Both the position numbers and the translations under genes were made by a program. From assembly GCA_021162745.1 (NCBI GenBank), contig JAGGYC010000132.1, forward strand, positions 1-38,152: a stretch of DNA of 38,152 bases. The letters run 5' to 3'. Position 1 is the first letter of the stretch; every line of letters begins with the position of its first letter. The notes below the pieces were generated by a model, which was not told where the DNA came from, made no database searches, and saw only the letters and a list, made by a program, of their open reading frames with translations. This DNA comes from Desulfuromonas sp. Lineage in GTDB: Bacteria > Desulfobacterota > Desulfuromonadia > Desulfuromonadales > Desulfuromonadaceae. This document shows positions 2,852 through 24,657 of this stretch, one piece after another.

Positions 2852-2906
2852 TGAAAAAAGGGGATTGAATGTGGAATTCAATTCATAAAATTTTATGGAG
2901 GTTGTA

Positions 2907-3512
2907 ATGAAAAAAAGTATTGCTGTTGTGACAGGTATGTTGGTTGTTTTGGCTGGTTCAGCTTATGCTCAATCAGAAGTAAAAGGGGCTATTCTTAACA
3001 ATTCAAATGTGAAGAATGCCGCTAATATTGCTATTGGAACAGCTAACAAGGCCAAGGTTGGTTCCATTGGGGTTAAAAATTCATCGATCCAGGGTGCGGT
3101 ATTGAATAACTCCAACGTTAAGAATGCTGCCAACATCGCCATCGGTACAGCCAACAAGGCTAACATGGGTTCGGTAAACATTCAGGGTTCTGCCGTCAAG
3201 GGCGCGGTACTGAATAACTCCAACGTTAAGAATGCTGCCAACATCGCCATCGGTACAGCTAACAAGGCCAACATGGGTTCGGTAAACATTCAGGGTTCTG
3301 CGGTTAAGGGCGCGGTACTGAATAACTCCAACGTTAAGAATGCTGCCAACATCGCCATCGGTGTGGGAAATACGGCTAACATGGGTTCGGTAAACATTCA
3401 GGGTGCCAATATCCACGGTGCGGTATTGAATAACTCCAATGTCAAGAACGCTGCCAATATCGCTATTGGCGTAGGCAATGAAGCCAACATGGGTTCTATC
3501 GTTGTCGAGTAA
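2907..3512 (+). CDS. Secreted protein of five 36-residue Asn/Ala-rich repeats (possible fibre subunit)
   Basis: A 201-residue exported protein. A Sec signal peptide (MKKSIAVVTGMLVVLAGSAYA) is followed by five tandem units built on GAxLNNSNVKNAANIAIG, then xxNxAxxGSxxI. There are no cysteines or aromatics in the repeats, and Asn, Ala, Gly and beta-branched residues alternate as in beta-solenoid or functional-amyloid proteins. I do not recognise a named family. ATG 2907 is chosen over an upstream in-frame ATG because GGAGG lies five bases before it. It is the first gene of a five-gene cluster with a CsgG-like lipoprotein, so a role as the secreted surface subunit, by analogy with curlin, is inferred. 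It ends in IVVE, similar to the end of its small partner (QVVE). Confidence 0.8.
   Translation: MKKSIAVVTGMLVVLAGSAYAQSEVKGAILNNSNVKNAANIAIGTANKAKVGSIGVKNSSIQGAVLNNSNVKNAANIAIGTANKANMGSVNIQGSAVKGAVLNNSNVKNAANIAIGTANKANMGSVNIQGSAVKGAVLNNSNVKNAANIAIGVGNTANMGSVNIQGANIHGAVLNNSNVKNAANIAIGVGNEANMGSIVVE
2985..3509 (+). repeat. Five in-frame 108-bp coding repeats
   Basis: Units begin at 2985, 3093, 3201, 3309 and 3417, each 108 bases (36 codons), the last one short. Units 2, 3 and 4 are nearly identical in DNA. Unit 1 encodes almost the same peptide core with many different synonymous codons, and unit 5 is intermediate. This points to protein-level selection on the core plus recent duplication or gene conversion in the middle. 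Confidence 0.95.
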
Positions 3513-3533
3513 ACGCTAATTTGTAGAGTTAAG

Positions 3534-3577
3534 TCCCCTTGGATGCTTTAGCATCCAAGGGGATTTTCTTTATCTTT
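3534..3577 (+). terminator. Strong hairpin after the repeat-protein gene (terminator or attenuator)
   Basis: A perfect 13-bp stem, TCCCCTTGGATGC and its complement around the loop TTTA, is followed by the T-rich stretch TTTTCTTTATCTTT. It sits between the first and second genes of the surface operon. It probably makes the repeat protein more abundant than the downstream export genes by partial termination or by protecting the mRNA end. Confidence 0.7.
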
Positions 3578-3589
3578 GTGGAGGGTGCA

Positions 3590-3922
3590 TTGAAGACAAT
3601 CAGCGTTGTATTCACGTTACTGTTTGTGCTGGCGTTTTCTTCATTAGTGGTTGCCGGTGACCTCGATGATGGAATTTCCAAGTTTACGGATGACAGTATC
3701 TCTAAATGGGATGATCTGGGCAAGAAAGAGCGCAACGTCAATTATATTAAACTCAATGCACGTAGTCAGGCTGATGTTCGTTCAAATGGCAGTGGCGCGG
3801 TGCAGGGGGGCAGTGGTGGTGGCAACATGAACAGTGTCGTTCTCGGTGCCGGTGGAACGATTCGTGGTGATGTGATCATTATTGATGACAGTAGGGGTGA
3901 TAAGACTCAGGTGGTCGAGTAG
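3590..3922 (+). CDS. Small exported protein of the surface-repeat operon
   Basis: About 110 residues, with a Sec signal peptide (KTISVVFTLLFVLAFSSLVVAG) and a mature part holding a charged N-terminal stretch, a Ser/Gly-rich linker (SNGSGAVQGGSGGGN) and a hydrophobic NSVVLGAGGTIRGDVIII segment. It ends in QVVE, echoing the IVVE end of the repeat protein. The TTG at 3590 is preferred because GGAGGG sits four bases upstream and the codon opens a clean signal peptide; longer in-frame starts would run through the terminator-like hairpin. By position it may be a nucleator or anchor subunit like CsgB or HfaA, but I see no family signature. Confidence 0.65.
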   Translation: MKTISVVFTLLFVLAFSSLVVAGDLDDGISKFTDDSISKWDDLGKKERNVNYIKLNARSQADVRSNGSGAVQGGSGGGNMNSVVLGAGGTIRGDVIIIDDSRGDKTQVVE

Positions 3923-3968
3923 GCAGCCGTGCTGTCATTTGGCATATCACCTGCGATGAGGAGTGACG

Positions 3969-5288
3969 ATGAACTTCAGAAAAACGTATGAATCTAAACT
4001 GTATTTCGTGCTGCAAATGGGACTGGCGTTTTGCCTGACCGTGTTGCTGGCTTCCTGTGCCGCCGTAGATCCGGGCAAAGTTGATGTTGAGTTGAAAAAA
4101 ACTGCACCTAAAATAAAGGTGACCACGTACTCACAGGCATTGTCCGATCTCGGTTTGATGTCGGAGATCTATGCCACTGGTTCACTGAAGATTCAAAGTA
4201 ACCCCATTGGTGACAACACTGGAACGGCACAGTCCACGGGGGGCGAGATTCCGCGGGATATTACCGAGATGATCAAGAGTTCGCTGAACTCCATTGGCGG
4301 TAACATCACCTTTATCCCTTATGATCCTGCCTATATGCAGAATCAAATGGTCACGGGGTATTCAAATTTCGAAAATAAACTGATCCCCGATGTCGTGATC
4401 AGTGGTGGCATCACTGAGTTTGACCGCGGACTTGAGACTCGTGGCGAAAATACCGATGTTGGTGCTGAGGCTGAATTTACCGGTATGAAGGATTGGTTGC
4501 CATCGAAACGAGTTTCCGTCGATTATGGTTCCAGTTCTAAAGATGGTTTGGCCCGCATTACTCTTGATTTCAATCTGCTTGATTTTAGAACCATGGCCGG
4601 CATTGCCAAAATGAATACTGTTAACAGTATGGAAGTGGCTAAGGCGATGGGCAATAAAGAGCTGGGCATAACCATTTTTGGTCCGACTTTTGGCCGTAAG
4701 GGCTCGATCAAGAAAGTACAGGGACGTCATGCTGCTGTTCGACTGTTGGTCGAATTGAGTATGATTCAGATCGTCGGTAAACATCTGGTAATGCCGTACT
4801 GGCGTCTGCTCGGTGATGAAAATGAGCCTGACAATATCGTTATTACGGCCCTGCAACGAAGTTATTACAACTTGAGTGAACAACAGCGCACGGCCATGGT
4901 GCAAGAATGGTTATACCTGCATGGATATGATGTTGATGTGACGGGTAGTATCGGTACACAGACGGTCGCGGCCATGCAAAACTTTGAGCCAACATTTGAT
5001 GGCAGTCATTCGATCTCTGTTGACTCATTTATTGAGATCTATACGACCATTCCCATTGATGAAAAAACATTGGGTCGGCGTAACCAGCTTTATCGGATAG
5101 GACAGCAGGCGAGTGCGGTCAATCCTGTGGTTGTTGCTCCTCAAGTACAACAGGTTGAGGTTGTAGAACAGGTCGCACAGGCGGCACCTGTGGTACAGGT
5201 GGCAGCTTCGCAAGCAGCTCCGGCGCCGGTGGCTGCGCCCGTAGTGAAAAAAGGTATTGGTCGTATTCTTAGTGATGAAGAATGGTAG
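3969..5288 (+). CDS. CsgG/HfaB-like outer-membrane lipoprotein with peptidoglycan-binding-like module
   Basis: A 439-residue lipoprotein. The signal peptide ends in the lipobox LLASC with the lipidated Cys at residue 30. Residues about 55-285 follow the CsgG plan: an early strand (YATGSLKIQ), a hydrophobic core, the PDVVISGGITEFDRG strand, a Gly/Asp-rich insertion, and the RITLDFNLLDFRTMAGIA strand, comparable to the CsgG segment ending in STGEIL. Residues about 302-345 (WLYLHGYDVDVTGSIGTQTVAAMQNF) look like a PG_binding_1 repeat. A Pro/Ala/Val/Gln-rich tail follows. GAGGAG lies five bases before ATG 3969. The likely role is an outer-membrane export channel for the two small exported proteins upstream. 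The CsgG link is by pattern, not alignment. Confidence 0.65.
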   Translation: MNFRKTYESKLYFVLQMGLAFCLTVLLASCAAVDPGKVDVELKKTAPKIKVTTYSQALSDLGLMSEIYATGSLKIQSNPIGDNTGTAQSTGGEIPRDITEMIKSSLNSIGGNITFIPYDPAYMQNQMVTGYSNFENKLIPDVVISGGITEFDRGLETRGENTDVGAEAEFTGMKDWLPSKRVSVDYGSSSKDGLARITLDFNLLDFRTMAGIAKMNTVNSMEVAKAMGNKELGITIFGPTFGRKGSIKKVQGRHAAVRLLVELSMIQIVGKHLVMPYWRLLGDENEPDNIVITALQRSYYNLSEQQRTAMVQEWLYLHGYDVDVTGSIGTQTVAAMQNFEPTFDGSHSISVDSFIEIYTTIPIDEKTLGRRNQLYRIGQQASAVNPVVVAPQVQQVEVVEQVAQAAPVVQVAASQAAPAPVAAPVVKKGIGRILSDEEW

Positions 5289-5307
5289 CCAAAATTAGGA
5301 GGATTGT

Positions 5308-6045
5308 ATGAAGCTACTGATAAAATGTTTGGGGGTTATCGTACTCCTTTCGCTACTGGTCGGTGTCTCACCATCCTGGGCAGGAAATAAACGGATTATG
5401 TCGATTCGTGCGGCCAAAGTACTCGCTGAACGAGCCCTGGTTGAGTCGGTTTATGGCTTGAAGTTGCGTGCGACTGAATCTGTTGAAAATATGGTTGCGG
5501 CCAGCTTTGAAGGTTCGACAGAATCGAAGACCAAGGCGTTGATCAAGGGGATAAAGTTTGAAGATGTCGTTTACGACGAGCCGTCGGATATTGCCAAAGT
5601 GACGGCGATTATCAGTCTGCCCAGTATTACAAACATCGATGGTCAAACTGTGGATCTCCACAATAAGGTGTTTCGTCGGGTCGCTTTTGCGACCTCAACT
5701 CCGTCTCAGGCCGGGCCTTTGATGGCTATGCGTGCTGCTGAGCTGGACGCCTACAAGCAGATGATTAAACAGGTTGTTGGTTTTCAACTGGAAAGTGAAA
5801 CCAGTGTTGAAAATTACATGCTTAAAAGTGATACGGTGAAGACGAAGGTGATGGCGACCATTTTCATGGCTGAACTTGTTGAATATGGTTGGGATGATTA
5901 CGGTGATGCCTTTGTGATAATGCAGCTGAATCTTTCTGAAGTTGGCTCCATGCTCGGTGAGCCGGTACAGTCTGCAGAGGAATTTGTTCAGGTTGAAGGA
6001 CAAGGTTCTCAGGCCGATGACTTTAAAGAGGCACAAAGTTCCTGA
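5308..6045 (+). CDS. Exported protein with two LPP20/FlgT-N-like domains
   Basis: A 245-residue protein with a signal peptide ending SPSWAG. It has an internal duplication. Residues about 30-115 (SIRAAKVLAERALVESVYG, then VENMV and DIAKVTAII) and about 130-215 (AMRAAELDAYKQMIKQVVG, then VENYM and DAFVIMQLNL) repeat the same pattern. AxRAA-A---L-E-V-G is the hallmark of the LPP20 (PF02169) and FlgT N-terminal fold used by envelope and flagellar accessory proteins. AGGAGG precedes the ATG, 19 bases after the CsgG-like gene. It probably assists the lipoprotein as a periplasmic factor; this is inferred from co-location. Confidence 0.65.
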   Translation: MKLLIKCLGVIVLLSLLVGVSPSWAGNKRIMSIRAAKVLAERALVESVYGLKLRATESVENMVAASFEGSTESKTKALIKGIKFEDVVYDEPSDIAKVTAIISLPSITNIDGQTVDLHNKVFRRVAFATSTPSQAGPLMAMRAAELDAYKQMIKQVVGFQLESETSVENYMLKSDTVKTKVMATIFMAELVEYGWDDYGDAFVIMQLNLSEVGSMLGEPVQSAEEFVQVEGQGSQADDFKEAQSS

Positions 6046-16187: not shown

Positions 16188-19100
16188 GTGGAACATCTAT
16201 ATCGCCTATGTTATTTCTGGCTGATGATTGTTGCCGTTTCGGGTCTATGGCCACCGGTGGCGTGTGCTGAAGACAACGTATCGCAAAGGGTTCTGCTCCT
16301 CCATTCCTACCATCAGGGACTCTCCTGGACCGACGCAATCACTCAGGCCGTTCAAACTGAACTCGCTGATCACTCTGTGGAATTGGTTATCGAATATCTG
16401 GACAGTAAACGCCGCCCGCTGATTGATGTGTGGCCGCCGATGAGCCATGCCTTGGCGCAAAAATATCCGTCTGATTATTTTGATGCCATCATCGTCAGCG
16501 ATAATAATGCATTGCAGTTTATGAACTGCGAGCGGGAGAAGATATTCCCCGAAGTGCCGCTGGTGTTCTGCGGTATCAATCATTTTCAGCCCAAAATGAT
16601 CCATTTTTTGCAGCCACGGGTCACGGGAGTGACAGAGGAAATTTCTGCTCTGGAAACGGCCCGCTTGATGCAGCACCTGCAGCCTGACCTGAAACGGCTG
16701 ATTGTTGTGTCAGGGGTAACGGAAACAGCGGCCATTAATGAGCTGAACTGTCGTTATCAACTTCACCAGATTGAAAGCCAGCTAACGCTGGAATGGTGGC
16801 ACGGGTTGGAAAGTAATGTGCTGTTTGAACGACTGGCACAACTGAATCCCCGACAGGACGGCGTGTTATTGCTTTCTTATAGTCGTGATGCCAGTGATCG
16901 CTATTTCAGTTTTGAAGAACAGGGACGGCTGTTATCGACAGCTTCCACGGCACCGGTTTATGGCTTGTGGGATTTTTATCTCGGCACGGGAATCATGGGC
17001 GGCGCTGTCGCCAGCGGACAGGACCAGGGGGTACTGGCGGCCACCCTGTGCCTGCGTTTGCTGCAGGGCCATGCAGCGGACGATCTGCCGGTGCAGCGTC
17101 ATACTTCCGGGAATTTGCTGGTTGATCAACGCGTTCTGAACCGTTTTCAAATATCGGATCACCGGCTTCCTGACGAAGCAACGGTTCTGTTCCAAAAACA
17201 TTCCTTCTATCGACAACACACGCGGGAATTCTGGTTGGCGGTGACGATCTTTATGTTGCTGTCGCTTCTCAGTCTTCGTCTGGTGGCCAGTAAAAAACGA
17301 CTGGCGCGGATTGCCCGCGATGTGCGCGAGAGCCAAAAGCGTTTTACGGATGTGACCAATAGCCTTAACGATGTTCTGATTCTGCTTGACCCTCAACTGC
17401 GGGTGCAGTTGATGAACGAGGCTGGCATGCGTGCCTATCATGTCGATCCTGACAACTATCAGGGTCAGCTGTGTCATGAGTTGTTCTGGAACTCTTCCAT
17501 CCCCTGTGAAAACTGCCCGTCGCTACAGGTGATGAAAGACGGAAACGTTGCCAAGGCGTTCCGTTTCCGTGACCACGGTCAGGTGCTGGATCGATCGATA
17601 TATCCCGTTTATGGTGATGCTGAGCAGTTGATTGGTACTGCGGTTATCGCTTCTGATATAACAGAGCGCTACCATGCCGAACAGGCTCTACGCAGAAGCC
17701 AGGAACAGCTACGCGATGTTGCCAACAGCATGCCGGGTGCGATCTTCCAGTTCAGCGTCCCGGCGTTCGGGCAGAAGAAAATGAACTATGTCGGTGGAGG
17801 AATCCGTTCCCTGGCAGGGCTGGATAAAAGCGTCGATATTATGCAGCCGTCACTGTTGCTCGAAGCGATCGTCGCTAATGACCGGCGGCGAGTAATGCAA
17901 TCTTCTTTGCGGGCTGCACGCCAGGAAACCATCTGGGACGACGAGTTCCGCTTCGCAACGCCTCAGGGTGAAAAATGGGTGCATGGCCGGGCTTACCCGC
18001 GTAAGGAAGATGATGGTTCAATAATCTTCAATGGTGTTTTGACTGATATCAGCGGCCGTAAAGTGATCGAGGCCGAGCTCGAACATCGGGTCAATCATGA
18101 TCATCTGACGGGACTGGCTAATGCGCTGCTCTACCGGGACCGTCTTGAACATGCCCTGGTTCGAACCCGCCGCCATGGGGAGATGCTGGCAGTGGTGATG
18201 CTTGACCTTGATCGTTTCAAGGAGATCAACGACAGCCTCGGTCATGCGGCTGGCGATGATCTGTTGCAGCAGGTCAGTCGGCGACTGCAGGACCACCTGC
18301 GCGGTGACGATACCGTTGCCCGCCTCGGCGGCGATGAGTTTATGGTGCTATTGGAAGGTTTGCGCGATCCGGACAGCCTGGTGTCGGTGCTGGAGAAGAT
18401 GATGCAGACCTTTACTCAGCCTTTCTGGGTTGAAGGTCAGGAGCTACGTATTGCGTCCAGCGTGGGTGTTACAACCTTTCCAGAGGGCGGTGACAGCGTT
18501 GAAAGTCTGATTAAAAATGCCGATGTGGCCATGTATAAGGCGAAAAAAAATGGCGGAGGGCACTATTATTTTTATGCAGAAGAGTTGACCGAACTGGCGC
18601 TGGAACGTCTGACGCTGGAGCGGGACCTGCGCAAGGCGCTGGAGCAGAATGAGCTGCTTCTGCATTACCAGCCCAAGGTCGATCTAGTCAGTGGCGAGCT
18701 GATTTCGTTGGAAACGCTGTTGCGCTGGCCTCATCCACAGCGCGGCATGGTACCGCCGGATATCTTTATTCCACTGGCGGAAGCCAGCGAGCTGATTCTG
18801 CCGCTGGGTGAATGGGTATTGAAGGAGGCATGTCGACAGGCCTGCCGCTGGCGTGAGCAGGATCTCTATTTTGGCCGGGTGGCGGTGAACATCTCTCCCG
18901 TGCAGATCAAGCGTGGTCGTCTACTGGAGACAGTTAAAAATGTTCTACACGAAACAGGAGTGGAGCCTGCAAGTCTATGTCTTGAGATAACCGAAACCTC
19001 ACTCATGGAAATTAATGACCAGATTCTGCGCGACCTGCATACCCTGCGGGAATGGGGAATATCGCTGGCTGTTGACGATTTCGGTACCGGATATTCTTCC

Positions 19101-19400
19101 CTGACCTATCTGAAGCGGCTGCCGATCAATACCCTTAAATTGGACAAGAGCTTTGTCGATGATCTGCCCCATAGTGATGAGAGTGCTGCCATTGCCCAGG
19201 CGGTTATCGCCATGGCTCATGCGCTGCAACTCAAAGTGGTGGCAGAGGGGGTGGAGAATGAAGATCAGCGTCAGTTTCTCCTCAATGCCGGTGCTGATCG
19301 GGGGCAGGGCTACCTGTGGGCGCGACCACAGGCCCAACCGGACTTCTCGGCTTTTCCAAAAAAATCTCATTTGACGTTTACCTGGTCACCGCTACGGTGA
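16188..19400 (+). CDS. Hybrid GGDEF-EAL c-di-GMP protein with ABC-type periplasmic sensor domain
   Basis: 1070 residues. A signal peptide (to about 27) is followed by a periplasmic ABC_sub_bind-type domain (about 33-320, starting VLLLHSYHQGLSWT), a membrane helix (about 352-372), two PAS domains (about 385-500 and 505-630, the first with a CPS-type Cys pair NxxIPCENCPS), then GGDEF and EAL. GGDEF is intact at 714-718, with an RxxD inhibitory site just before it (RGDD). EAL reads ETL at 842-844, with DDFGTGYSSL and AEGVEN intact, so phosphodiesterase activity is plausible. GTG start, AAGGGG five bases upstream. It probably links a periplasmic ligand to c-di-GMP, which often controls surface fibres and attachment. 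Confidence 0.92.
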   Translation: MEHLYRLCYFWLMIVAVSGLWPPVACAEDNVSQRVLLLHSYHQGLSWTDAITQAVQTELADHSVELVIEYLDSKRRPLIDVWPPMSHALAQKYPSDYFDAIIVSDNNALQFMNCEREKIFPEVPLVFCGINHFQPKMIHFLQPRVTGVTEEISALETARLMQHLQPDLKRLIVVSGVTETAAINELNCRYQLHQIESQLTLEWWHGLESNVLFERLAQLNPRQDGVLLLSYSRDASDRYFSFEEQGRLLSTASTAPVYGLWDFYLGTGIMGGAVASGQDQGVLAATLCLRLLQGHAADDLPVQRHTSGNLLVDQRVLNRFQISDHRLPDEATVLFQKHSFYRQHTREFWLAVTIFMLLSLLSLRLVASKKRLARIARDVRESQKRFTDVTNSLNDVLILLDPQLRVQLMNEAGMRAYHVDPDNYQGQLCHELFWNSSIPCENCPSLQVMKDGNVAKAFRFRDHGQVLDRSIYPVYGDAEQLIGTAVIASDITERYHAEQALRRSQEQLRDVANSMPGAIFQFSVPAFGQKKMNYVGGGIRSLAGLDKSVDIMQPSLLLEAIVANDRRRVMQSSLRAARQETIWDDEFRFATPQGEKWVHGRAYPRKEDDGSIIFNGVLTDISGRKVIEAELEHRVNHDHLTGLANALLYRDRLEHALVRTRRHGEMLAVVMLDLDRFKEINDSLGHAAGDDLLQQVSRRLQDHLRGDDTVARLGGDEFMVLLEGLRDPDSLVSVLEKMMQTFTQPFWVEGQELRIASSVGVTTFPEGGDSVESLIKNADVAMYKAKKNGGGHYYFYAEELTELALERLTLERDLRKALEQNELLLHYQPKVDLVSGELISLETLLRWPHPQRGMVPPDIFIPLAEASELILPLGEWVLKEACRQACRWREQDLYFGRVAVNISPVQIKRGRLLETVKNVLHETGVEPASLCLEITETSLMEINDQILRDLHTLREWGISLAVDDFGTGYSSLTYLKRLPINTLKLDKSFVDDLPHSDESAAIAQAVIAMAHALQLKVVAEGVENEDQRQFLLNAGADRGQGYLWARPQAQPDFSAFPKKSHLTFTWSPLR

Positions 19401-19447: not shown

Positions 19448-20485
19448 TTAATCAGATTTCAATCTGATCACTTCAATGGTGGTGATCGCCTGGACGTCGC
19501 GATCATCGGTGTAGTCTGGACCGACAATAACGCGAAACTTGCCCCCCTGTTCAATGGGGTCGCCATCGGCGGTGTCGGCAAGGAGAATTTGCTCGCCCAG
19601 AGTGGAGACCATCAATTCCCCCATGGAGAAGCTGGAACGGTAGCCATCCGTCGCTGAGAGGATAACGATCTGATCCATCTGTAATTTTGCCCCGGCATCC
19701 TTGAGGATTACGGCCAGTGGGGTGCCACTGAAGGTGTGCAGGCCGTGGTAGCCGCGACCGACGCCGACCACTTTTTTGGTGATTTGACGGCGTGGGTAGC
19801 GTTTCAGGCTGGTGATATGCAACGGGTTGCTGACCGCACCGTTGATATGTATCTGCGGCGAAAAGAGCCTAGCATCGCGATTAACCGTGATGGCGGGGCG
19901 AACATCCACCACATCGATATTGACCACCCCTTCGAGGAAACGATCGCTGTAAAAATCGCCGGTGATTACCAATTTAGACAGGGCAATAGGGCGGTAGAGC
20001 TGTTGCATGGCAAACTGGAAATCCTCCGGTTCATGGCACATGGTGCAGTTGTTTTTTGTCGGTAGCACCGGGGTGGATTCATAGGATAACACCACCTCCG
20101 CCGGGTTGTGATAGAAGATTTCGCCCCACGACAGCACTACTTTTTTGCCCTTGGCATCACTCAAGACGATGGTGGCATCGACGGGCTTTTTGAATGTGGA
20201 GCCTTTTTGTTCGATGTTGGCCATGGCGAGCAGGGTGCGTAGGGGAACAGCACGGTGGTGAAATACGCCGTGATAAGCGCCATTGCTGGTGACTTCGTTA
20301 TGCTGCACCTCGACGGATTGCAGCCGTTGCAGATCCGCCAAGGTCAGCTGCATGGGATGATTGACGGCACCGGTGATGGTGAGTAGCGGTTCTGTCGGAG
20401 AGGTTGTGTCGGCAGCGAGCGTGCTGGAGCCCAGATACAGGAAGAACAGCAGTGCCGTAATTGAACGTGTCAGGGTGATTCTCAT
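19448..20485 (-). CDS. Periplasmic SUOX-fold protein with one c-type heme site
   Basis: 345 residues with a signal peptide (ALLFFLYLGSSTLAA). Two copies of the oxidoreductase molybdopterin-binding (sulfite-oxidase, PF00174) fold are suggested. The first starts LLTITGAVNHPMQLTLADLQRL. The second starts IHINGAVSNPLHITSLKRY and ends with FSGTPLAVILKDAG, VILSATDGYRSSFS, GGKFRVIVGPDY. Between them lies CTMCH, a single heme c site. These are the only two cysteines, so the Mo-ligating Cys of true sulfite oxidases is missing and Mo catalysis is unlikely. ATG 20483-20485 overlaps the stop of the ResB-like gene (ATGA). Last gene of the TonB operon. Possible role: heme-linked sensor or reductase of the imported ligand (inferred). 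Confidence 0.75.
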   Translation of the reverse strand: MRITLTRSITALLFFLYLGSSTLAADTTSPTEPLLTITGAVNHPMQLTLADLQRLQSVEVQHNEVTSNGAYHGVFHHRAVPLRTLLAMANIEQKGSTFKKPVDATIVLSDAKGKKVVLSWGEIFYHNPAEVVLSYESTPVLPTKNNCTMCHEPEDFQFAMQQLYRPIALSKLVITGDFYSDRFLEGVVNIDVVDVRPAITVNRDARLFSPQIHINGAVSNPLHITSLKRYPRRQITKKVVGVGRGYHGLHTFSGTPLAVILKDAGAKLQMDQIVILSATDGYRSSFSMGELMVSTLGEQILLADTADGDPIEQGGKFRVIVGPDYTDDRDVQAITTIEVIRLKSD

Positions 20486-21246
20486 ACATTATCTCCATGG
20501 CGAAGTTTGCGAATGATAAAAAAGTAGCCCCCCATCAGCAGGCACATCAGGGTATTGCCCAGGATGATCAATGTCAGACCCGGATCTTGCTTGATGATCA
20601 CCTGTAAGCGGGGTGGTTGATTGGGCAGCGCCTTGCTGCTCATCACCAGATGATAGCTCACTCCCTTGTGCCACAGTGGATGCAGTACCTGTAATTGATT
20701 GGTGATGTTGTGGCCGTTATCGGTGAATTTCAGTTGCGCTTCACAGTGTTGCAGGTTCCCCATGAGTACGCCCGTAGCATGGAAGCTGCTGTGTTGTTCC
20801 AGCACCTCTACGTTGGTGGCGGCGATGGTGATCTGCTGACCGGCTACGCATCTCATTCTGGTTTTCAGCCCGGAGAATTCACTCAGGGCGTGTCCCGACA
20901 AAATGAATACAAAACATAGGTGCATCAGGGTGGGGCACAGCAACAATAATGTGTGTTTTTTGTCAGTATGATGTCGCCGTTGCCAGAGTTGCAGCATGCG
21001 CTGGCTGGAACAGGCTGCTATATTGCAAGCCAGCAGGGTGAGGAGCATCATCAGGCTGATCAACCACCAGCAGTCACCATCAATATTATTTTGTAACCAG
21101 TCGGGCAACAGTTGTGTGTTGATCTGCTGATAGCGTTTATCGCTGTTGGTGTATAACCCACCGATCACCAGATTGACGGTGAGCAGGTTGAGGGTCCAGA
21201 AACACAGCCTGGTGCTGGTCAGGCAGTTCCATAGCGTATAGATCAT
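20482..21246 (-). CDS. ResB-like cytochrome c biogenesis protein
   Basis: 254 residues. Three N-terminal helices (WTLNLLTVNLVIGGLY, WWLISLMMLLTLLACNIAAC, LCPTLMHLCFVFILSGHALSEF) are followed by a periplasmic domain and a last helix (LTLIILGNTLMCLLMGGYFFIIRK). This is the ResB/Ccs1 plan in a short form. With the CcsA-like neighbour it would form a system II heme ligase delivering heme to CxxCH proteins; the SUOX-like protein immediately downstream is the obvious client. It overlaps both neighbours by four bases, indicating translational coupling. Shorter than standard ResB (about 450). Confidence 0.75.
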   Translation of the reverse strand: MIYTLWNCLTSTRLCFWTLNLLTVNLVIGGLYTNSDKRYQQINTQLLPDWLQNNIDGDCWWLISLMMLLTLLACNIAACSSQRMLQLWQRRHHTDKKHTLLLLCPTLMHLCFVFILSGHALSEFSGLKTRMRCVAGQQITIAATNVEVLEQHSSFHATGVLMGNLQHCEAQLKFTDNGHNITNQLQVLHPLWHKGVSYHLVMSSKALPNQPPRLQVIIKQDPGLTLIILGNTLMCLLMGGYFFIIRKLRHGDNV

Positions 21247-22052
21247 TTCCCCTCCTGCTGGTGGGCCGTATTGTTTTGTTGTGTTGCGGGTTGTTGATTG
21301 ACTGTTTTATCGGATCCGGGTTTCGGCAGCAGCGGCAACCCATAGAACACTATGATGGCCATGCATGCAGCTACGATGGCGAAATAGGCCTTTTTGCGAT
21401 TATTGAATCCCTTCAAGAAAGGGGTGTGCAGGTAACTGCAGTAACAGCACCATACGGCGGCTGAATGGATGTGGCGCGTACCCCAGTGGAATAGTCCTCC
21501 CCACCCCAGATAGGTCCAGACACAACCGCTGAGTTGCGCCATGCTGTAAAATACAAAACCCCACACGGCATAACTGTTGAATGATTGAGTGTTGGTACGT
21601 CCGCGCAAAAATTGTAGCGCCAACCAGCCACTGAGGATAAAGCAGCCATGCGCCAGGTCTTCAAAAATGAAGAATAAGTAGGCACTCCAGGTTGGAGTAA
21701 ACGGTTTTGGCAGGTGGCATTCTGGGGGGAAGGCAAGAACCAACATCATTATCCCTGCCAGGGGGATCAGGGCAGACAATATGTGTGTTTGTTGCCGTTG
21801 TTTGTGCCACAGTAGTGCAATCATGGCTGCCAGGCACCAGGGGAGAAAGTGACCGGCGTGGAACACCCCCTCCAACGTGAAAAACCCATAGCGCCAGCAG
21901 CGCCCGAGTTGACTCAGGGTGTGGATTAGCACCCCCAAGGTTACACCCCAGCCAGCCCAACGCTGTTTGCCGCTTATATAGCACAGCAGACTGCCTAGAT
22001 ATACGACACCGGTCATTTGAAACAACAGGGTATAGAAAGGACTTAAAAACAT
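21243..22052 (-). CDS. CcsA/ResC-like cytochrome c assembly protein
   Basis: 269 residues, about eight membrane helices. The organisation follows CcsA (HemY-like heme handling). Conserved elements include HAGHFLPWCL, a Trp-rich WTYLGWGGLFHWGTRH, and the VWCCYCSYLH segment, which corresponds to the usual WGxYWxWDPKE-to-YLH region. The WDPKE core is not conserved (HWGTRH), so it is a divergent branch. A hydrophilic Gln/Asn-rich tail follows the last helix. It starts 49 bases after the TonB-receptor gene and overlaps the ResB-like gene by four bases. Confidence 0.75.
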   Translation of the reverse strand: MFLSPFYTLLFQMTGVVYLGSLLCYISGKQRWAGWGVTLGVLIHTLSQLGRCWRYGFFTLEGVFHAGHFLPWCLAAMIALLWHKQRQQTHILSALIPLAGIMMLVLAFPPECHLPKPFTPTWSAYLFFIFEDLAHGCFILSGWLALQFLRGRTNTQSFNSYAVWGFVFYSMAQLSGCVWTYLGWGGLFHWGTRHIHSAAVWCCYCSYLHTPFLKGFNNRKKAYFAIVAACMAIIVFYGLPLLPKPGSDKTVNQQPATQQNNTAHQQEGK

Positions 22053-22101
22053 AATATCTCACCAAAAAACCGGCGGCAGCACTGCTGCCGCCGGGGGAAT
22101 A

Positions 22102-24108
22102 TTAAAACTTCGCGTTCATCCCCAGCAGAAAGCTGCGACCCTGTTGCAGATAATCATAGTTGATATAATTTTTGTCGGTAAGGTTGTCGAGTTGCAAAAA
22201 CAGCTTGGTGTCAATACCGGCCACTGTCGATAATTTCTGTTCAAGGCGCATGTTTAACAGGAAGTAGTCCGGCATTTTGGTCCAAGTCCCATCGTCTCTT
22301 TTATTCATTTTGTAGTTATAGAACTGACGCTGGGTGTAGGAACCCTGGGCAGAGATCAACAGGCCGAAGGGAAAGTCGTAGCGCATGTCGAGGTTGGCGC
22401 GATGGCGGGGGCGACCTGGTAATTCGCGACCGGTATCCTTATCCTTGGTGAGCATATAGGTGTAATTGAATCCAGCCCTTAAGTGATCTGTAATATCAGC
22501 GTTAACGGTCGCTTCCAGTCCCTGAATACGGGATGATCCAATATTTCTATAGTATGAGATCTTTTCTTCCCCTTGAAAGATATTGTCGCGGTAGATCAAA
22601 TCTTTTATATCGTTATAGAAGTAGACTACAGAACCATCGATGCTTGGATTGAATTGATGATCAAGACCGATTTCGTAGGCGGTTGTTTGTTGTGGTTGGA
22701 GGTTTGGGTTGCCACCGACCATGTCGCTGAACAACTCCTTGAGGTGAGGAAATCGGGTTTTCTTGCTCACCGAGGCGTGGATTGTGGTGGCATTGCTGGC
22801 CGTGATAACCATACCGATTTGTGGATTAAATGTGCTGTCGGAATCGGGCACCGGTTGCTCGATACCATCACTTTCAGCTTTGCGGGGATCGTAGTAATCC
22901 CAACTGGTGCCGATCACCACTGACAGCCAGTTGTTGATGGTGATCTCATCTTCCACGGCCAGGCTGTAGATATCGCTTTCGTACTCACCAATATCCTCCC
23001 AGCTGTCACCCGGGTTGCTGACTTCAGAATGTTGACTGTTGTCGCGCGTGAAACTGGCACCGATCTTCAGGAAGTTAACCTCTCTCGCATTCCAGAACGC
23101 TTGTACATTACCACCGGTGCTGTAGTTGTCGCGCCCAGATTTATAGAACCATCCCCTGTTGCTGGTGTCGGTATCCTTCAGGGTGTTGTCCTGATCAACG
23201 TAAAAAATGTTTGTTTTAATTCGCAACTGTTTGTTGAAACGGTGCTCACCGATCAGACTCACCTGCCATTGTTGCCAATCACTGAACTCCCAGTCGTTGT
23301 TGGGAATTCCCTTCTCGTTGTTGACGTAGTTCATGACCAGATAAAGTTTGGAATTATCGTTGGGGGTGTAGCCCAGTTTGGCATTAACACTTTGCTTGGT
23401 GTAGTCACTGCCATCGCGCTTGCCGCCATCTTCATTGAGGTTCGACCCAATGCCGAATTTGTCACTGTGTTCGTCAAAATCGCTAGACAGGCGAAAACCG
23501 TCACTTTCACGGAAGGTGTAATTGACCCAGTAGTTGAATTTGTCACTGCTGCCGCCGTGAGAGACGGAGTAGTTCTGGGTGTCGTAGTCGCCAAAGGAGG
23601 TGGTGATATCTGTTTGTGGTTTGGAGGTGCCACGTTTGGTAACAATGTTGATAACGCCACCCATGGTATTGGCTCCATACAGCACCGAGGAAGCACCCTT
23701 GGTGATGGTGATTTTAGCAATGGAATCAACGGGGATCAGGGATAGATCGAGCATATGATCGTATTGACCATAGATTGCAACGCCATCGACCAGCACCTTG
23801 AGGTCGCTCTGTTCAAAACCGCGTATGGAGACGGTTTGTTCTGAACGGTTATTTCCTGCGGTTTGAATGTTGATGCCGGGTAGCAGTTTCAGGGCATCGG
23901 AAACATTTTCTGCGCCACGCAACTCCAGGTCCGTGGCGGTGACCTCGGTCACCGTGGTGGCGAGGTTAACGGTCTGTTTTTCTCCGGTGACGATCACTTC
24001 GCCGAGGGTAAACACCGCTTTAGATTCGTCGGCACTGGCCGACCATCCCGGGGTTGCGGCTAGCAACATCATGCCGGTGATGAAGGTGACTATTGTTGTT
24101 TTGATCAT
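22102..24108 (-). CDS. TonB-dependent outer-membrane receptor
   Basis: 668 residues. The signal peptide ends GWSASA, followed by a TonB box (LGEVIVTG), a plug domain (DALKLLPGINIQTAG to GVINIVTKRGTSKP, including VSIRGF and VLVDGV), and a 22-strand-type barrel ending in a C-terminal Phe (LGMNAKF). It uses proton-motive energy from TonB-ExbBD to import a scarce ligand. The barrel is closest in feel to the BtuB/CirA/vitamin-or-siderophore group, but the ligand cannot be read from the sequence. It is first in a four-gene operon with CcsA-, ResB- and SUOX-like genes, and its promoter has two ModE-like boxes, suggesting molybdate, tungstate or a chelated form (inferred). Confidence 0.9.
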   Translation of the reverse strand: MIKTTIVTFITGMMLLAATPGWSASADESKAVFTLGEVIVTGEKQTVNLATTVTEVTATDLELRGAENVSDALKLLPGINIQTAGNNRSEQTVSIRGFEQSDLKVLVDGVAIYGQYDHMLDLSLIPVDSIAKITITKGASSVLYGANTMGGVINIVTKRGTSKPQTDITTSFGDYDTQNYSVSHGGSSDKFNYWVNYTFRESDGFRLSSDFDEHSDKFGIGSNLNEDGGKRDGSDYTKQSVNAKLGYTPNDNSKLYLVMNYVNNEKGIPNNDWEFSDWQQWQVSLIGEHRFNKQLRIKTNIFYVDQDNTLKDTDTSNRGWFYKSGRDNYSTGGNVQAFWNAREVNFLKIGASFTRDNSQHSEVSNPGDSWEDIGEYESDIYSLAVEDEITINNWLSVVIGTSWDYYDPRKAESDGIEQPVPDSDSTFNPQIGMVITASNATTIHASVSKKTRFPHLKELFSDMVGGNPNLQPQQTTAYEIGLDHQFNPSIDGSVVYFYNDIKDLIYRDNIFQGEEKISYYRNIGSSRIQGLEATVNADITDHLRAGFNYTYMLTKDKDTGRELPGRPRHRANLDMRYDFPFGLLISAQGSYTQRQFYNYKMNKRDDGTWTKMPDYFLLNMRLEQKLSTVAGIDTKLFLQLDNLTDKNYINYDYLQQGRSFLLGMNAKF

Positions 24109-24162
24109 GACTACCTCTCAATAAAATGGATACTGTGTGCAAAAAAACGATAGGGGGATAAT

Positions 24163-24202
24163 AGTGATCCGAGGCTGTGAACTCTAAACACGTCGGATCG
24201 CT
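24163..24202 (-). other. Inverted repeat in the leader of the TonB operon
   Basis: AGTGATCCGA and TCGGATCGCT, nine of ten paired, with a 20-base loop. It lies just downstream of the predicted start site in the untranslated leader (about 100 bases). It could form an RNA hairpin controlling the operon or be a further protein site. It does not match a riboswitch I know. Confidence 0.45.
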
Positions 24203-24216
24203 GTTTTACATATGGG

Positions 24217-24244
24217 TGCGTTATATATCTAGGGATATAACGCA
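24217..24244 (-). promoter_or_regulatory. ModE-like operator, box 1
   Basis: A perfect inverted repeat, TGCGTTATAT and ATATAACGCA, with an 8-base spacer. It closely resembles the ModE half-site pattern known in E. coli and predicted in other Proteobacteria (CGnTATATA, six to eight bases, TATATAnCG). It overlaps the predicted -10 element and spacer of the TonB-operon promoter, as expected for a repressor. Confidence 0.65.
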
Positions 24245-24250
24245 TGTCAG
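24222..24250 (-). promoter_or_regulatory. Sigma-70-type promoter of the TonB operon
   Basis: On the minus strand, -35 CTGACA (24245-24250), a 17-base spacer and -10 TATATA (24222-24227). Five of six and four of six bases match the consensus. The start site would be near 24215, giving a leader of about 107 bases. Confidence 0.6.
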
Positions 24251-24251
24251 T

Positions 24252-24275
24252 GGCTATATAGCAGTGTGTATAGCG
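24252..24275 (-). promoter_or_regulatory. ModE-like operator, box 2
   Basis: GGCTATATA, six bases, TGTATAGCG, seven of eight inner arm bases complementary. It has the same CGCTATATA-type half-sites as ModE boxes. Its centre lies 33 bases from that of box 1, about three helical turns, so two dimers would bind on the same face. It sits just upstream of the -35. Confidence 0.55.
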
Positions 24276-24657
24276 CAAAATCAAGAGCAAATACTCTTTA
24301 AATACAATTTCTTACTGTATACATGATGCGCTGTTACACAATGGGACATGCTGCATGAGATTGGCACGTCTTTATTGATTTATGGTTGGATTGTGTCCTT
24401 TTTTTAGTTAGGCCAGCTTGGTGAAACCCAGAAGTGATCATTGACGCAATTGCGTAAAACAGCGGACAGATTGTTTTGGATGAAATGCCCTGCTGACGTA
24501 TATGAAGCAGGGGCAAGGTTACATGTCGATTGCCGAGTTGTACTTATTTGTTAAGCTTGTTTACGTGTTGGTAGACCTGATTAATGGATGATTGAGGCGT
24601 ACCGGGTAGCGCACACTGTCCGCCGTTCGATTGCACCTGCTGCATTGTTGGTTGGAA
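24276..24657. other. Intergenic region between the TonB operon and the archease gene
   Basis: About 380 AT-rich bases. I see no gene, and no sigma-54 or RtcR-type promoter like the one that drives E. coli rtcBA. Confidence 0.5.

Follow-up and report, generated by a model that had tools for sequence, protein, structure and literature searches.

The 38,152-nucleotide window analysed here, contig JAGGYC010000132.1 of Desulfuromonas sp. (assembly GCA_021162745.1), contains a minus-strand operon of four genes whose promoter, relatives and possible part in molybdenum (Mo) and tungsten (W) uptake are the subject of this study. The first gene (22102..24108) encodes a TonB-dependent outer-membrane receptor of 668 residues with Plug (92.2 bits) and TonB_dep_Rec (154.8 bits) domains above the Pfam cut-offs, a signal peptide and a TonB-box-like sequence, FTLGEVIVTG; it scores under every substrate-specific cut-off of NCBIfam. 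Next come a CcsA/Cytochrom_C_asm-family membrane protein of 269 residues (21243..22052; 34.4 bits, cut-off 29.9), a short ResB-like membrane protein of 254 residues (20482..21246) and an exported protein of 345 residues with two SUOX-like domains (19448..20485; Oxidored_molyb, 48 bits, cut-off 24). A preliminary description of this DNA had reported these four genes, and profile matches place all of them where it did. Its divergent CcsA/ResB pair is present as genes, with Cytochrom_C_asm above its cut-off and ResB below (13.4 bits, E 0.034, cut-off 24.6), the ResB assignment being aided by the ccsA-like neighbour that is kept in relatives. The four genes had also been called coupled. This is true of ccsA-resB-SUOX, where successive genes overlap by 4 bases each, but not of the receptor gene, which is separated from the ccsA-like gene by 49 bp containing a strong terminator-like hairpin (22070..22094, minus strand; GC-rich 11-bp stem, 3-base loop, T6 tail; -25 kcal/mol, z -4.9). 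Comparable hairpins occupy this gap in genomes G027, G031 and G028, hairpins of different sequence are found in G118 and G119, and some relatives have none. Because a terminator-like hairpin stands after the receptor gene, the receptor may be produced in excess over the downstream proteins.

Two ModE-type palindromes, also part of the preliminary description, lie at the promoter on the minus strand. Box 2 (24219..24242), which closely follows the inferred transcription start, shows 0 mismatches to CGNTATAT-N8-ATATANCG; the 2.9 Mb genome has no other perfect site. When the upstream region was dinucleotide-shuffled 2000 times, no shuffle produced a perfect site, and none produced two separate sites with at most two mismatches. 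Box 1 (24252..24275) has two mismatches and overlaps a sigma70-type promoter (24255..24284; TTGATT at 24284-24279, 18 bp, TATATA at 24260-24255), the -10 element of which is the right half of the box. The genome contains five sites with at most two mismatches, as many as for the reversed control pattern, and so the case for the weaker box 1 rests on its position and conservation. The other sites of this class (on contigs C53 and C118, and at 22589 inside the receptor gene) lie in or beside unrelated genes and look like chance matches. In six species both boxes stand out upstream of the operon as islands of conservation, which together with the unique perfect match and the shuffles convinces us that the palindromes are real. 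In five further genomes of the genus, and in six of a second family of the order, the upstream box stays on the promoter. In all 12 loci from the two families the arrangement is fixed: TTGNNN starts 8-9 bp before the box, the spacer is 17-18 bp, and the right half of the box serves as the -10 element (TATATA or TATACA). A protein bound to this box would have to compete with RNA polymerase, and we therefore infer repression.

A candidate for this protein is encoded in the same genome (G000:C84, adjoining mobB): a full-length ModE with a helix-turn-helix and two Mop domains, which matches PRK10676 with an E value of 1.2e-50, though neither the whole protein nor the helix-turn-helix reaches its NCBIfam cut-off. 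The genome also carries WtpABC, located behind a porin. A search of 136 genomes of the order gave 15 perfect matches to the box pattern and none to the reversed control. From our reading of the fetched loci, perfect boxes outside the operon precede wtpABC (L195, L196, L197, L200, L201), modE with mod or wtp genes (L198, L199) and modE-tupABC (L202, where the identity of ModE was confirmed); two further matches (L193, L194) have no obvious Mo/W gene beside them. The E. coli-type ModE consensus has been described in identical form for Geobacter (Rodionov et al., PMC545781) and is also given in the Geobacter metallireducens genome paper (PMC2700814). A second type of operon with a ModE-type box was seen in Desulfuromonas relatives (L102:8762-14152, L103, L104). 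It contains a different TonB receptor, an ECF-type transporter (double ATPase, CbiQ-like subunit and an unassigned membrane protein) and a protein weakly resembling methanogenesis marker 11/TiaS. At the syntenic position, the genome of the window has the porin and WtpABC.

Both the genus and the second family retain the gene order receptor-CcsA-ResB-SUOX. Immediately downstream of the operon, G027, G031 and G035 of the genus carry exbB-exbD-tonB; in the window these genes are not adjacent to it. Genome contigs scanned with a single sequence yielded no relatives. SUOX homologues are present in 30 of 395 genomes drawn from across the phylum, and searching named genomes with a profile then recovered 79 loci, many from metagenome-assembled genomes (MAGs). 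These loci belong to Desulfobacterota, Nitrospirae, Acidobacteriota, Myxococcota, Aminicenantes, Bacteroidales and other groups, and in 54 of them a receptor gene was detected. The SUOX protein of the second family carries a tetrapyrrole-methylase domain at its C terminus (PF00590, E about 1e-37), and often there is a second SUOX copy without CxxCH, followed by an amino-acid-permease-type gene. Exported fusions of SUOX to a tetrapyrrole (corrin/porphyrin) methylase are encoded at L083:10066-11868, L085:9673-11472 and L085:11542-13266. A methylase fold of the S-adenosylmethionine-dependent type behind a signal peptide was unexpected. At L175:792-7451, genes for an FmdE-domain protein and a DUF4213/DUF364 'heavy-metal chelation' protein adjoin a SUOX-methylase fusion gene.

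Neighbouring genes connect the operon with Mo and W. Using hidden Markov models built mostly from family-confirmed members (E < 1e-50 for WtpA, TupA and ModA; E < 1e-10 for ModE), we found Mo/W binding-protein or modE genes near SUOX homologues in 9 of 26 loci from the phylum and in 20 of the 79 named loci, two samples that are not fully independent, as some genomes are shared or closely related. The same search of 20 random 18-kb control regions from eight operon-carrying genomes gave none. The wtpA gene adjoins the SUOX gene in L169 and L172, and in L179 a ModE-CcsA/ResB-ModABC cluster stands beside SUOX-receptor. At L186:6477-8264, a TupA-like tungstate-binding domain is fused to the SUOX/CxxCH protein, followed directly by a modE-like gene and tupABC. 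Two Bacteroidales loci (L291, L294) have the order modE-wtpA-TonB receptor-SUOX-wtpB-wtpC-moeA-moaA-moaC, and an acidobacterial MAG (L254) has mobA-modE-TonB receptor-ccsA-resB-SUOX. Genes for FecCD-type ATP-binding cassette (ABC) transporters are found within the operon in L167 and L283. In three species of a related family (G118, G119, G120), moreover, the Mo/W cofactor (Moco/Wco) riboswitch RF01055 lies directly upstream of the receptor gene, with scores of 63-69 bits (gathering cut-off, 36 bits). Among the distant loci searched for it, none has the riboswitch except L203, a G122 contig without an identified operon gene.

The SUOX-like protein has a single heme c attachment motif, CTMCH, at residues 147-151 between the two SUOX domains (20033..20047, minus strand); C147, C150 and H151 are invariant in 15 aligned homologues. 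An AlphaFold2 model (mean pLDDT 85, pTM 0.81) shows two SUOX-like halves, and a Foldseek search with this model retrieved sulfite dehydrogenases and the pterin-binding protein PruR (7kom, TM-score 0.75 by target; 7rkb, with neopterin). A search of PDB sequences with the single protein gave a chance match only, and a profile gave a marginal match to SorA, so the fold assignment rests on Pfam and the model. The 48-bit Pfam match, the CTMCH motif and the Foldseek result are in line with the SUOX-fold heme protein of the earlier description. The N-Q-C of SorA, which contains the Moco cysteine, aligns with N-E-V, and the CxxCH pair are the only invariant cysteines, leaving no conserved Mo ligand; judging from the alignment, we therefore do not expect it to work as a Moco enzyme. 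The Moco cysteine is missing from PruR too, where Trp takes its place (PMC13259868); the SUOX-like protein has N-E-V there. The SUOX-like protein may bind a pterin, as PruR does.

Sequence comparison thus puts ModE-type operators on the promoter and assigns the receptor and SUOX-like genes, across phyla, to molybdate/tungstate transport loci. The four-gene operon of this sediment bacterium is very probably part of an undescribed outer-membrane route for Mo/W uptake. It is likely, on the same grounds, to be a ModE-repressed, TonB-dependent Mo/W acquisition module that hands the metal to an ABC transporter, chiefly because SUOX and receptor genes neighbour, or are fused to, Mo/W transport genes. 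ModE loaded with molybdate or tungstate would bind both boxes, block RNA polymerase and repress the operon as long as metal supply is ample. Under scarcity the receptor would be made and, energised by ExbBD-TonB, would bring into the periplasm a Mo/W compound that porins could not deliver, for instance one chelated by an organic ligand, bound to a pterin or in thio-anion form. The SUOX-like protein, with two PruR-like domains flanking one heme c, would receive the compound there and help to free the tetra-oxyanion, probably by a redox step, for capture by an ABC binding protein: WtpA in this genome, and in others TupA, ModA or a FecBCD/BtuCD-type system. The CcsA/ResB-like pair would be the inner-membrane partner, attaching the heme or serving another role. 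The Mo/W-linked uptake suggested in the preliminary description is thus supported by the identity of the ModE boxes, the riboswitch in relatives, and the linkage or fusion to ModA, WtpA, TupA and ModE; no positive evidence turned up for the sensing role that it had offered as an alternative.

Several observations weigh against this function. The operon adjoins Mo/W ABC genes in none of 16 loci of the genus and the second family, and SUOX homologues near wtpABC in L190, L191 and L289 have no receptor gene detected on the same stretch. No riboswitch was found in the window. The best NCBIfam scores of the receptor, although below cut-off, are to heme and siderophore receptor models. Finally, genus member L078 shows no box, and in locus L081 of the second family a box-like match lies outside the promoter arrangement; apart from these few exceptions, near relatives gave no instance of the operon lacking boxes and answering to a different regulator.

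We put forward more tentatively, as a possibility that the motifs and fusions allow, that the tandem pterin-site SUOX domains, the heme c, the tetrapyrrole-methylase-like domain often present and the recruited CcsA/ResB pair together strip Mo or W from a complex imported via TonB and pass the oxyanion to TupA, WtpA or ModA. The complex could possibly be a pyranopterin, a thio-anion or a dedicated metallophore, with CcsA/ResB drawn away from cytochrome maturation.

The preliminary description had instead given CcsA/ResB the role of a private cytochrome c synthase serving solely the SUOX-like heme protein, which would be compatible with an Mo/W acquisition module. Synthases of the CcsA/ResB type with a dedicated substrate do exist (NrfI and CcsA1 of Wolinella), and in the window the SUOX-like protein has one CxxCH, with ccsA-resB overlapping immediately upstream. 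However, 11 loci combine a ccsA-resB pair with a SUOX protein lacking CxxCH, and in 9 of these no other CxxCH open reading frame of at least 100 residues is found on the stretch. Conversely, 42 CxxCH-containing SUOX copies are in loci without a detected ccsA-resB pair, although some stretches end early. The canonical WWD motif of CcsA is WGxxWxWD; in an alignment that left out the two canonical sequences of the same genome, the CcsA-like subfamily conserves LGWxxxFxWxx(R/K)H in its place and has the aspartate replaced throughout. The protein in the window has the altered motif LGWGGLFHWGTRH. Moreover, the heme motif to be served is of the ordinary CxxCH kind, and two further Cytochrom_C_asm genes with high scores are present in the genome. 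The pair is thus not simply the synthase for one heme c, given the 11 loci, although in the window it may still act as such; as a general account of CcsA/ResB, a private synthase seems doubtful, and the suggestion that the operon matures heme c for itself in order to produce a single periplasmic heme protein is not supported in that form.

The fold of the SUOX-like protein allows another explanation, namely cofactor or pterin salvage: the receptor would import molybdopterin, Moco, Wco or another pterin, which the SUOX-like protein would bind and the heme oxidise, metal or pterin being reused. The match of the model to both SUOX enzymes and PruR is consistent with this, as are the shared lack of the Moco cysteine, the Moco-sensing riboswitch and the Moco biosynthesis genes that accompany the operon in relatives. 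On the other hand, the Trp of PruR is not conserved, and the strongest neighbours are oxyanion transporters, including the TupA fusion, which point to a free oxyanion as the product. We consider salvage unlikely. The combination of SUOX fold and heme c is also typical of sulfite dehydrogenases, and the operon might encode a periplasmic redox enzyme or metal sensor, with the receptor supplying an organic substrate or signal instead of transporting metal. With the Moco-ligand cysteine absent throughout the alignment, and no signalling partner, sigma or anti-sigma gene recognised beside the operon in the neighbourhoods read, this is very improbable. Least probable of all, and rejected here, is conventional uptake of iron, heme or siderophores by an operon with incidental ModE-like boxes. 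In its favour, the receptor scores best with heme/siderophore models, if far under cut-off, and some operons contain FecCD-type permeases; but such permeases can also carry molybdate or tungstate, as MolBC does, and the conserved promoter boxes, the riboswitch and the modE, wtp, tup and moa neighbours speak otherwise.

Two other regions of the window deserve mention. At 2895-6045, a gene for a protein of near-identical repeats (GAVLNNSNVKNAANIAIG...) is followed by one for a lipoprotein that resembles CsgG/HfaB by eye, an arrangement reminiscent of a curli-type secretion locus. At 16188-19400, convergent with the operon, a protein of 1070 residues has an apparent N-terminal periplasmic sensor region followed by GGDEF-EAL (by eye).

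In the usual view, molybdate and tungstate reach the periplasm by simple passage and are then captured by ABC binding proteins. If the proposed function is correct, a TonB step under ModE, and in relatives also under the Moco riboswitch, adds a metal class to TonB transport; organic or thio-complexed Mo/W would be a real nutrient in anoxic sediments; and apparently misannotated 'molybdopterin-dependent oxidoreductase' and CcsA/ResB-like proteins of Desulfobacterota, Acidobacteriota, Bacteroidales and other phyla would acquire a function. We found no description of TonB-dependent Mo/W uptake in the open-access literature, subscription journals being mostly outside the search, and within that literature the system is apparently undescribed, as had been supposed. 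A large genomic survey of Mo use mentions no outer-membrane step (PMC6147048), the paper describing RF01055 makes no mention of TonB or the outer membrane (PMC2408646), and a 2024 review of TonB-dependent transporters does not mention molybdenum or tungsten.

Several known systems come close. PruR is likewise an exported SUOX-fold domain without the Moco cysteine; the protein described here differs in having tandem domains with CxxCH between them, no Trp, and a TonB/Mo context instead of DcpA. System II CcsA-ResB shares a Cytochrom_C_asm domain above cut-off and an adjacent ResB-like partner, whereas the pair in the operon lacks the WWD aspartate, has a short ResB that scores below cut-off and is not tied to a CxxCH partner. 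RF01055 precedes the same operon with above-cut-off matches in three species, and the window differs in having none. TonB operons for metallophores (siderophore, nickel, zinc, lanthanide) have the same plug and barrel receptor, ExbBD-TonB (here in the same genus), metal-sensing repressor and ABC partners; in the present operon the regulator and partners are those of Mo/W, and the role of periplasmic partner falls to a heme protein with SUOX-like domains in tandem, to which a tetrapyrrole-methylase domain is often fused. With ModABC, WtpABC, TupABC and the ModE regulon the operon shares the operator type, loci and one TupA-SUOX fusion. Those transporters move the oxyanion across the inner membrane only, and to them the operon would add an outer-membrane step.

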